Positions 2,694 through 15,000 of a DNA stretch of 22,981 nucleotides are shown in pieces. Position numbers and translations under genes: made by a program. Source of the DNA: Candidatus Desantisbacteria bacterium CG1_02_49_89 (lineage in GTDB: Bacteria > Desantisbacteria > UBA1551); assembly GCA_001871075.1 (NCBI GenBank), contig MNUP01000084.1, positions 1 through 22,981 on the forward strand, read 5' to 3'. Position 1 is the stretch's first letter, and each line of letters opens with the position of its first letter. Below the pieces are notes generated by a model. It saw only the letters and a list, made by a program, of their open reading frames with translations. It did no database searches and was not told the origin of the DNA.

Positions 2694-2738
2694 CCCGCCT
2701 CAAAGAGGCGAGGTCTCGCCCGCTGAAAGACGGGCGGA
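2694..2738. repeat. Two-hairpin modular repeat, copy 1
   Basis: Stem 1 is CGCCTC/GAGGCG (2696-2701 with 2705-2710). Stem 2 is CGCCCG/CGGGCG (2717-2722 with 2731-2736). Between and overlapping them is the 14-mer GGCGAGGTCTCGCC (2707-2720), identical in all three copies in this window, which can itself fold (GGCGAG/CTCGCC, loop GT) in competition with the flanking stems. Confidence 0.8.
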
Positions 2739-2769: not shown

Positions 2770-2823
2770 CCCGCCCTGCGCAAAGGCAGGGCGAGGTCTC
2801 GCCCCGATATTAATCGGGGCGGA
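2770..2823. repeat. Two-hairpin modular repeat, copy 2
   Basis: Stem 1 is CGCCCTGC/GCAGGGCG (2772-2779 with 2786-2793). Stem 2 is CGCCCCGAT/ATCGGGGCG (2800-2808 with 2813-2821). The invariant 14-mer core lies at 2790-2803. Over about 53 bp this copy is almost identical to the one inside lpd (7815-7867). It ends about 25 nt before the lptC start, so it may form part of that mRNA's leader. Confidence 0.85.
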
Positions 2824-7092: not shown

Positions 7093-8541
7093 TTGGCGGA
7101 ATACGATGCGATAGTGATAGGCGGGGGTCTGGGAGGCTATATATGCGCGATCAGGACCGCGCAGCTGGGCGGAAAAGCCTGCGTCATAGAAGAGGATAAG
7201 ATCGGCGGGACCTGCCTTAACCGCGGGTGCATCCCGACAAAGGCACTTCTTACGACTGCGGGACTATTTTCCAGGATCAAGAAAGCAAAGGACTTCGGCA
7301 TTAAAGCGGAAGGCTGTTCCGTGGATTTTACGGCAATGATGGACAGAAAAGAGAAAATAGTTGCGCGCCTGCGCGCCGGCGTTGAATTCCTGCTGAAGAA
7401 CAATGGGATCGATATCGTAAAAGGAAAGGGAAAGGTCACGGGAAAAGGAACGGTGGAGGTTACGGGAGGGACCGAGCCGCAGAAAACCCTGAGCGGCAGG
7501 AATATAGTTGTGGCGACCGGTTCGGTTGTTGCCAGGGTCCCGGGCATAGAATGCAACGGGACAAACATTATTACAAGCAATGAGATGCTTTCTCTCGCGA
7601 GCGTTCCTTCAAGCCTGCTCATAATAGGCGGCGGGGTAATAGGATGCGAATTTGCCAGTTTATTCTCGGAAATAGGGACCAAGATCACGATCGTTGAAAT
7701 GCTGCCCCAGATACTCCCGCTCGAAGATGAAGAGATCTCGAAGACGTTCAGGCGGATGCTTGAAAAACAGGGAATAAAAATATACACCGATACTAAAGTA
7801 AATGCAGTGGTCAGCCCGCCCAGCGCAGAGGCTGGGCGAGGTCTCGCCCCGATATCAATCGGGGCGGACGGCCAGTCGTCAGTGGTCAGCGAATTGTCAA
7901 ACGGGGAAAAGATAGAGACCGAAAAGGTGCTGGTCTGTACCGGGAGAGCGCCGAACGGAAGCGGGCTGGGCCTGGAAGAACTCGGCGTCAAGATGGACAG
8001 GGCCAGGGTTATAGCAGACGAAAAAATGCACACGAATATAGAGGGGATTTACGCGGTCGGTGACGTGAACGGCGGGATCATGCTCGCACACGTCGCAACA
8101 GCGGAAGGGGTCGTAGCCGCGGAGAATATTATGGGAAAAGACAGCAGGATGGATTACACGGCGGTCCCCGGCTGCATTTTCACGTTCCCTGAGATCGGCT
8201 CGGTCGGCCTTACCGAAAAAAAGGCGAGAGAAACAGGAGCGGAAGTTACTGTCGGCAGGTTCCCGTTTTCTGCATGCGGGAAAGCCATCGCGATGGGTGA
8301 GCCGGATGGTTTTGTCAAAGTCATAGCGGATAAATCCGGCAAGGTCCTCGGTGTCCACATAATAGGCCCTGAAGCGACAAACCTCATAGCCGAGGCAGCG
8401 GTCTGCATCCGGAATAATATCGGCATTGAAGGGATAGCGAAGACCATACACGCCCATCCAACCCTGCCCGAGGCTGTTGTTGAAGCCGCGCTTGACACAA
8501 GAAGCGAAGCTCTTCAGATCCTGCGCAAAAAGATCGGCTGA
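7093..8541 (+). CDS. lpdA: Dihydrolipoyl dehydrogenase (E3) with in-frame repeat insertion
   Basis: E3 reoxidises dihydrolipoyl groups of 2-oxoacid dehydrogenase or glycine cleavage complexes using FAD and NAD+. The FAD loop is IGGGLGGYICAI. The redox disulfide is Cys41-Cys46 in GGTCLNRGCIPTK. The NAD-binding GGGVIGCEFASL follows, then the second FAD motif IYAVGDVNG and the C-terminal catalytic HAHPTLPEAVVEA. The start is TTG 7093, with GGAGG at 7083-7087. The 482-residue length includes about 25 extra residues (roughly 242-266), encoded by a repeat copy just before GEKIETEKVLVCTGRAPN. Removing 75 bp between two 11-bp direct repeats restores normal spacing. lipB and lipA lie downstream, but no E1/E2 or GcvH genes are in the window. 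Confidence 0.95.
   Translation: MAEYDAIVIGGGLGGYICAIRTAQLGGKACVIEEDKIGGTCLNRGCIPTKALLTTAGLFSRIKKAKDFGIKAEGCSVDFTAMMDRKEKIVARLRAGVEFLLKNNGIDIVKGKGKVTGKGTVEVTGGTEPQKTLSGRNIVVATGSVVARVPGIECNGTNIITSNEMLSLASVPSSLLIIGGGVIGCEFASLFSEIGTKITIVEMLPQILPLEDEEISKTFRRMLEKQGIKIYTDTKVNAVVSPPSAEAGRGLAPISIGADGQSSVVSELSNGEKIETEKVLVCTGRAPNGSGLGLEELGVKMDRARVIADEKMHTNIEGIYAVGDVNGGIMLAHVATAEGVVAAENIMGKDSRMDYTAVPGCIFTFPEIGSVGLTEKKARETGAEVTVGRFPFSACGKAIAMGEPDGFVKVIADKSGKVLGVHIIGPEATNLIAEAAVCIRNNIGIEGIAKTIHAHPTLPEAVVEAALDTRSEALQILRKKIG
7805..7890. repeat. Two-hairpin modular repeat, copy 3, inserted in lpdA
   Basis: CAGTGGTCAGC occurs at 7805-7815 and 7880-7890, exactly 75 bp apart (25 codons). Between them are stem 1 CGCCCAGC/GCTGGGCG (7817-7824 with 7831-7838), the invariant core GGCGAGGTCTCGCC (7835-7848) and stem 2 CGCCCCGAT/ATCGGGGCG (7845-7853 with 7858-7866). 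Compared with copy 2 the T-A pair of stem 1 is A-T here, a compensatory change. The reading frame stays open through the element. Confidence 0.9.
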
Positions 8542-13773: not shown

Positions 13774-13893
13774 CGTCATACGTCATACGTCCCGCCCAGC
13801 AAGATTGGCGGGCAAGCTTTACGTCGAACATGAACTGATAAAAATAAGCCTTTTATGTTTTTAACGTACGACGTACGACGCTCGACGAACGAC
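13774..13893. repeat. Iterated ACGTC arms with nested hairpin between hom and thrC
   Basis: The left arm is CGTCATACGTCATACGTC, followed by a nested hairpin CCCG(c)CCA/TGGCGGG (13791-13798 with 13806-13812) and TTTACGTCGAACATGAAC. The right arm is AACGTACGACGTACGACG followed by CTCGACGAACGAC (about 13862-13893). The nesting shows two repeat families combined, one inserted into the other. Confidence 0.75.
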
Positions 13894-13911
13894 AATAAGG
13901 AGCAAAAGAGC

Positions 13912-15000
13912 ATGTGGAAAGGCGTGATAGAAACTTATCGAAGATACCTGCCGGTGTCAGATAAAACCCCGGTAATTACCATGCTTGAAGGGAATACCCC
14001 GCTCATCGAGGCAAAAAATCTTTCCAAATATTTGTGTAGTGGCAGAGCTTGCTCTGCTCTCAGGATTTTTCTGAAATACGAAGGCCTTAACCCGACAGGT
14101 TCTTTCAAGGACCGCGGCATGACCCTCGCGATCTCCAAGGTAAAAGAGGAAGGTTTCAAGGCTGTTATCTGCGCTTCCACCGGCAACACTTCGGCTTCGG
14201 CCGCGGCATACTCGGCGCGCGCGGGATTGAAATGCATAGTCCTGATACCGAAGGGTTCCATAGCTCTGGGGAAATTATCGCAGGCATTGATACACGGTGC
14301 TCAGGTCATCGCGGTCAACGGCAATTTTGACCAGGCTCTTGAAGTTGTGCGGGAGATAACTCAAAAATACCCGGTTGCTGTGGTGAATTCCATAAATCCT
14401 TACAGGATAGAGGGCCAGAAAACCGCGTCTTTTGAAATATGCGATGTGCTGGGAAAGGCCCCGGATTTCCAGGTGATGCCTGTGGGGAACGCGGGCAATA
14501 TTACCGCGTACTGGAAGGGATACAAGGAATACAGGAAAATAGGCAAGATCAGCAGGCTCCCGAAGATGTGCGGGTTCCAGGCAAGCGGGTCAGCGCCGAT
14601 AGTGAAAGGCCATCCCATAAAGAATCCGCATACCATAGCCACCGCGATCAAAATAGGGAATCCCGCAAGCTGGAAATACGCGGAAGCGGCAAGGGATGAA
14701 TCCGGCGGGTTGATCGATTCAGTGACTGACAAAGAGATAATCAGCGCGTACAAGCTCCTTGCGTCTCTTGAGGGTGTGTTCGCAGAACCTGCCTCGGCCG
14801 CATCTATAGCCGGTCTTATCAAGTTAGTCAAACGTGGCTATTTCGTGCGTCGTGCGTCGTGCGTCGTGCGTCGTCCGACAATCGTATGCATTTTAACGGG
14901 ACACGGGCTAAAGGATCCTGACAGGGCGATCGCTTCCGTGAGATCGCCGGCAGTAGTTGAGCCTAAACTTGACAAAGTCATGAAAGTCATTAAAATATAG
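13912..15000 (+). CDS. thrC: Threonine synthase carrying two repeat-encoded segments
   Basis: ThrC converts O-phosphohomoserine to threonine with PLP. The Schiff-base lysine is in [11 protein letters not shown], the PLP phosphate loop is [12 protein letters not shown], and [17 protein letters not shown] and [16 protein letters not shown] are typical of the short bacterial form. The start is ATG 13912 with AAGGAG at 13897-13902; upstream in-frame codons from 13855 are repeat sequence. Two segments look foreign: residues 42-50 (CSGRACSAL), written by a GCAGAGC-TT-GCTCTGC hairpin, and [11 protein letters not shown] near the C-terminus, written by a 7-nt tandem array. Neither touches the recognised catalytic motifs, so the enzyme may still work. 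It probably forms an operon with hom. Confidence 0.94.
14042..14057. repeat. Palindrome GCAGAGC-TT-GCTCTGC inside thrC
   Basis: A perfect 7-bp stem with a TT loop adds about nine codons where the family normally runs from the KYL region straight to the [10 protein letters not shown] motif. The same design (GC-TT-GC centre) is seen in the palindrome that breaks the HEPN gene at 21740-21759. I could not find an unambiguous target duplication here. Confidence 0.6.
14844..14878 (+). repeat. Heptanucleotide tandem array inside thrC
   Basis: CGTGCGT is repeated exactly four times (14844-14871), followed by a degenerate unit CGTCCGA. Because 7 is not a multiple of 3, gain or loss of one unit would frameshift thrC before its last roughly 40 codons; only changes of three units keep the frame. 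Confidence 0.9.

Follow-up and report, generated by a model that had tools for sequence, protein, structure and literature searches.

Few palindromic repeats are known to become part of proteins, and those of Rickettsia and of certain REP-rich genomes are the most familiar. The palindromic repeats of Rickettsia (RPEs) and Wolbachia (WPEs) occur in spacers and in frame in pre-existing genes, including DnaE, at solvent-exposed parts of the product; RPEs are 100–150 bp long, reside in obligate intracellular Alphaproteobacteria, and can be represented by different element groups at one locus in orthologues (PMC3767692). GTAG/CGTC REPs, which are short, high-copy palindromes, include intragenic copies (Opitutus terrae, R. 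conorii and others), with dimers that encode 20–30 residues in genes, and in two Xanthomonas a single recB site holds different REPs (PMC3733652). REPINs are REP doublets moved by RAYTs, in which an inverted pair of palindromes acts as the unit, shows compensatory changes, folds as a single-strand hairpin and carries no autonomous gene (PMC3116915). Additionally, direct repeats of a heptamer (TAACTGA) form short arrays in spacers of Beggiatoaceae and others (PMC4679880).

Here we describe, in a distant lineage, a tagless two-hairpin family of which empty, filled, spacer and in-frame copies are found within one genome. Its in-frame copies hit DNA polymerase as well as amino-acid, cofactor and central carbon enzymes, and the same loops carry unrelated repeats in a sister genus. 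The source genome is a draft in 150 contigs, the window is the whole stretch of 22,981 nucleotides analysed, and the comparison within the phylum is with one other genome, of the same order (G001, hereafter the sister genome). Taken together, the data lead us to read the repeat, with a probability of roughly 0.7, as a lineage-specific, REPIN-like, non-autonomous mobile element that is selfish, inserts precisely and is tolerated in surface loops; its spread by an HUH Y1 enzyme is the weaker part of this reading.

The insert in lpdA

The lpdA product is a bona fide dihydrolipoyl dehydrogenase (E3), matching TIGR01350 above the cut-off with an E value of 7e-165. The features of the gene and its insert, together with two intergenic copies of the same family in the window, are as follows.

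2694..2738, + strand: intergenic family copy, 45 bp, with a short tip in hairpin 1
2770..2823, + strand: intergenic family copy, 54 bp, upstream of the ORF at 2849
7093..8541, + strand: lpdA, dihydrolipoyl dehydrogenase (E3), insert-bearing, 482 aa (TIGR01350 549 bits, cut-off 409; full-length alignment with PDB E3s)
7808..7814, + strand: heptamer word TGGTCAG, left of the lpdA element (flank register analysis)
7815..7868, + strand: inserted two-hairpin element, 54 bp, read in frame (18 codons), within VVS-PPSAEAGRGLAPISIGAD-GQSS (R1 covariance model 77 bits, E 6.5e-13; ends CCCGCC...GGCGGA common to dispersed copies)
7815..7840, + strand: hairpin 1 of the lpdA element, CCCGCC-CAGCGCAGAGGCTG-GGCGAG (fold z -6.5; tip covariation over 44 unique copies)
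7835..7848, + strand: invariant core GGCGAGGTCTCGCC, the joint between the hairpins (76 exact genome copies, control 0)
7843..7868, + strand: hairpin 2 of the lpdA element, CTCGCC-CCGATATCAATCGG-GGCGGA (fold z; tip covariation)
7869..7889, + strand: heptamer words CGGCCAG TCGTCAG TGGTCAG, right of the lpdA element (flank register analysis), predicted by AlphaFold2 to encode the second strand of the E3 β-hairpin

The preliminary description of this DNA had recognised an in-frame insertion of a structured two-hairpin repeat in E3 and had taken its length to be 75 bp, the distance between two CAGTGGTCAGC copies, expecting that its deletion would restore normal E3 spacing. The two copies do lie exactly 75 bp apart, at 7805 and 7880, and the insertion is real and in frame; its size, however, is 54 bp (18 codons). 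Specifically, the KIYT-to-RAPN spacing is 60 residues in the lpdA protein and 41–49 residues, with one of 56 and a median of 45, in E3 homologues (n = 55); removing 54 bp leaves 42 residues, whereas removing 75 bp leaves 35. A 75-bp insert is ruled out by this spacing and by the AlphaFold2 model, from which one strand would be lost. The near-identity to the intergenic copy at 2770–2823 is borne out, with 93% identity over the 54 bp at 7815–7868. As RNA, the insert folds into two adjoining hairpins at -38.9 kcal/mol, with a z score of -6.5 against shuffles, and the DNA fold of the other strand has a z score of -5.8 against shuffles. When the insert peptide was looked for in 55 other aligned E3 homologues, none (0/55) carried it.

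An AlphaFold2 model of the lpdA E3, built on an alignment of 47 E3s, has a mean pLDDT of 94.2 and a pTM of 0.92. Its sole internal stretch with pLDDT below 50, residues 248–256, sits in a loop between strands 236–240 and 264–268, and the insert is therefore read as the predicted disordered tip of a surface β-hairpin, with the heptamer words on each side coding for its strands. The earlier suggestion that the insertion lies in a tolerant loop is supported. The element landed at the turn of this β-hairpin, adding 18 residues as a disordered loop.

A dispersed two-hairpin family in spacers and conserved genes

Family members follow the plan CCCGCC-tip-GGCGAG GT CTCGCC-tip-GGCGGA, in which GAGGTCTC links two hairpins tail to tail, and are usually 45–57 bp long. 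The core has 76 exact matches in the 2.48-Mb genome, compared with 0 for its reversed control, and three occurrences in the window against 0.13 expected (at most two mismatches). The half-element pattern matches 135 times in the genome; the control has 8 matches and the sister genome 3. Both covariance model R1 and the half-element pattern raise the family count, and the copy counts that matter are not based on R1 alone. At least 91 distinct two-hairpin copies are present in the loci read (about a hundred genome-wide), and the genome-wide search proposed in the preliminary description has therefore yielded many further copies rather than none, and conserved genes hold at least ten of these.

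The 71 bounded copies start with CCC(G/A)CC and finish with GG(C/T)GGA. The feet and the joint of the element are nearly invariant, and both tips vary in sequence and length yet remain paired. In hairpin 1, 0.94 of tip positions are paired, compared with 0.65 ± 0.03 when arms are shuffled among copies (44 unique copies); for hairpin 2, the corresponding values are 0.875 and 0.60 ± 0.04. The stems are thus maintained by compensatory change. Tip modules recur across copies in many combinations, and variants include a perfectly symmetric form (TCCGCC..GGCGAGATCTCGCC..GGCGGA), a form whose joint is 13 bp long and a subfamily in which the left hairpin is altered. The majority of copies lie in spacers and not in open frames. 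Judged by sequence, long-tipped copies at two loci (L044 and L066) adjoin two apparent tRNA-Ser genes on the opposite strand.

No such family was found in the sister genome, which has no core matches, two marginal covariance-model hits and three half-pattern hits. A search of 290 genomes with the left half and the core found one match each in 2 of the 288 genomes outside the order, and viral contigs gave 47 core-only matches; in both searches, the contexts listed show no two-hairpin element. Plasmid and phage matches to the element were not found, and in the window Rfam recognises only tRNAs.

Besides E3, in-frame copies occur in at least nine conserved proteins, among them DnaE, Ddl, HisF, ThiL, a LeuC/homoaconitase-type enzyme, a fumarase alpha-type subunit (FumA), QueE (twice) and a B12-radical SAM protein; further in-frame copies lie in a glycosyl-hydrolase-like protein that matches no family and towards the N terminus of several exported proteins. 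Where 90 or more open codons lie on each side of a copy, one frame is kept throughout (7/7). The length is a multiple of three in all 13 coding copies, compared with 19 of 58 copies elsewhere (p = 6e-6, a per-copy count), and in 9/9 when the exported proteins are left out (p = 2e-4). The core is open in all six frames, reading GEVSP/ARSRP/RGLAP and GETSP/ARPRP/RDLAP, and coding copies are read in several of these, with peptide cores RGLAP, GEVSP, ARPRP, ARSRP, GETSP and RDLAP. Selection would have removed out-of-frame and core-disrupting insertions, the survivors in genes being multiples of three in surface loops, and a core free of stops in every frame would make survival within genes likelier.

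The sister genome offers a second view of these loops. Its Ddl orthologue is shorter by exactly 18 residues at the element. In HisF (L272), the element is part of a 62-residue composite insert that also comprises other dispersed repeats (with matches in contigs 96 and 66) and heptamers, and the sister HisF is without the entire 62 residues. In the sister E3 (L100, 2219–2241), the same loop holds an unrelated hairpin, GGGTACCCACTGAAGGTGGGTGC, which belongs to a small family in that genome. Additionally, the sister ThiL and LeuC-type proteins (L269 and L271) have several in-frame GTAG REPs (GTAGTGGCAGA..TCTGC) and other hairpins in the loops where the source genome has the element. These shared loops may be either landing places that are hit repeatedly or places where old inserts have been overwritten, both of which have been discussed for RPEs (PMC3767692). 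True GTAG REPs are found in both genomes of the order, with 119 copies in the sister genome and 12 in the source genome. One GTAG REP, GTAGTGGCAGAGCTTGCTCTGC, lies in frame in the threonine synthase gene thrC (13855–15000) at 14036–14057 of the window, where the product is 5 residues longer than 2zsj.

Target sites and heptamer arrays

Empty and filled versions of the same context coexist in the genome. Specifically, GCAAGCCTA^AAGGCTTGCCCT is empty at 5 places and filled at 2, and ATTG^TAACTCAGGG is empty at 4 places and filled at 12; in both, joining the sequences on either side of a filled site gives the empty site exactly, with no base gained or lost. The element thus enters its targets precisely and without target duplication, at points with a loose YYG^NA preference, and for these two contexts cut-and-paste enzymes that make 7-bp duplications are excluded. 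Single-strand transposition by HUH Y1 enzymes of the IS200/IS605 family is precise in the same way and leaves no target duplication.

The flanks, once joined across the element, have a period of 7, with a match of 0.50 at lag 7 compared with a background of 0.255 (z = 11.5); z is 9.0 at lag 14 and 3.7 at lag 8. This period runs past the first heptamer on both sides of the element (L2–L1, R1–R2 and R2–R3). In the window, 51 tandem-repeat rows lie between 1195 and 22596, many with a period of 7 or 8 and about four units, each imperfect and with its own word, in spacers and at gene ends. Because the arrays run on past the first unit and are plentiful where the element is missing, they are a seat of the element and not its scar. 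The preliminary description had left the 11-bp repeat beside the lpdA insert as either a target-site duplication or part of a word array; it is part of an array of heptamer words, and comparison of empty and filled sites elsewhere in the genome reveals no duplication. Within thrC, at 14843–14874, 4.6 units of TCGTGCG form a perfect heptamer array, by which the product is 7 residues (three heptamers) longer than the threonine synthase 2zsj.

Some copies of the ATTG^TAACTCA site hold another hairpin, TCCCAAAGGGACCCCTTTGGGG, in place of the element, and one hybrid copy (L064) has TCCCAAAGGGACCCCTTTGGGG fused to the right half of the element. The element is also found inside other hairpin repeats.

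Mode of spread and relation to known systems

Our best guess for the mobiliser is an HUH Y1/RAYT enzyme. Copies may have spread in trans through such an enzyme, of the IS200/IS605-RAYT kind, which would recognise the folded hairpins and insert them without duplication. The source genome has ten Y1 genes (PF01797), and the element family is beside none of them (flanks 0/10), contrary to what a REPtron would lead one to expect. On contig 23 (L135/L136), two adjacent Y1 transposase genes are flanked by GTAACTCA-tagged hairpins (GTAACTCAGGGCTTCAGCCCTGA and GTAACTCAAACCTTCAGGTTTGA), an arrangement resembling a REPtron in which the tag is GTAA. The element has inserted into copies of the GTAA-tagged hairpin family that flanks this Y1 pair. 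The copies in the genome give no sign of present-day mobility.

The main rival does without a transposase: at replication forks, template switching or gene conversion would copy or exchange the hairpins and so account for swapped tips, nesting in other hairpins and hybrids. The hybrid copy, the ATTG^TAACTCA site that holds either hairpin type, the tip modules recurring in many combinations and the lack of a linked transposase all speak for it, and the highly variable tips are a counterpoint to the mobile-element reading, such that recombination between hairpins as a route of spread is hard to exclude. However, in contrast to the varying tips, the CCCGCC and GGCGGA ends and the core are strictly conserved, as expected of a protein-recognised unit, and precise empty and filled sites occur at unrelated targets with a site preference. 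We therefore regard this rival as unlikely, though as the most serious competitor of a mobile element.

That the insertion is functional, as a regulatory RNA hairpin or a selected E3 loop, is very improbable. Intergenic REP-like hairpins can alter mRNA stability or termination (PMC3733652), yet the same family lies in unrelated proteins in different frames and with different peptides, which argues against a shared peptide function as well as against ribosomal skipping; moreover, the E3 loop is disordered in the model, and the unrelated hairpin of the sister E3 stands at the same place. The insert peptide shows no sign of function and is tolerated selfish DNA.

A conventional MITE with a 7-bp target-site duplication is scarcely credible. 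The initial heptamer signal pointed that way, as left and right heptamers beside the element are alike only in register 7 (0.463 compared with 0.306 ± 0.019), and such a duplication was then ruled out by the extension of the arrays, which continue with period 7 on both sides and are common without the element, and by the empty sites, where the duplication is zero. A 7-bp duplication would also require coding lengths of 2 mod 3, whereas all those observed are 0 mod 3.

The byp elements reported in yeast mitochondria are mobile hairpins inside genes. That the present element is similarly skipped by the ribosome or cut from the RNA, leaving an enzyme without the peptide, is highly improbable. Very stable RNA hairpins within a reading frame speak for it, but the coding copies are all in frame and stop-free (7/7 in the same frame, 13/13 multiples of three), which skipping would not need, and the 18-residue loop is compatible with the E3 fold as modelled by AlphaFold2.

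On the reading as a selfish mobile element, essential proteins can gain new peptide from selfish DNA and stay intact, and the system opens to test by what route such DNA turns into protein sequence, which loops accept repeats and which enzyme moves repeats scarlessly. We tentatively propose that, in this sparsely sampled phylum, seamless hairpin insertion and heptamer array growth may form a continuing process that adds repeat-derived peptides to the same core-enzyme loops, genus by genus and with different families; selfish DNA could then be a main source of loop-length variation in the core proteome, with heptamer arrays as landing pads for a new, tagless kind of hairpin.

In mode, the element resembles both RPEs and REPINs. 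The likeness to RPEs that the preliminary description pointed out is supported, with one family in spacers and in frame in conserved genes, at loops, and is a likeness of behaviour, in which shared sequence would not be expected; distinct from RPEs, the element is 45–57 bp long, has two separate hairpins with swappable tips and heptamer-array seats, and has empty and filled sites in one genome. Like REPs, it is a short, high-copy palindrome mostly in spacers, but it bears neither a GTAG nor a CGTC end tag and has no linked RAYT. With REPINs it shares paired inverted palindromes and compensatory pairing, whereas it is conserved at the hairpin feet and the central joint, variable in both tips, without an adjacent RAYT, and has many genic copies. 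Unlike a REPtron, it does not flank a Y1 gene; unlike a MITE, it makes no target-site duplication; and unlike byp-like skipped elements, it is not independent of frame. The Beggiatoaceae heptamers use one word per genome, whereas here there are many words, with hairpin elements between units. Its insertion without target duplication agrees with movement of the IS200/IS605 type.
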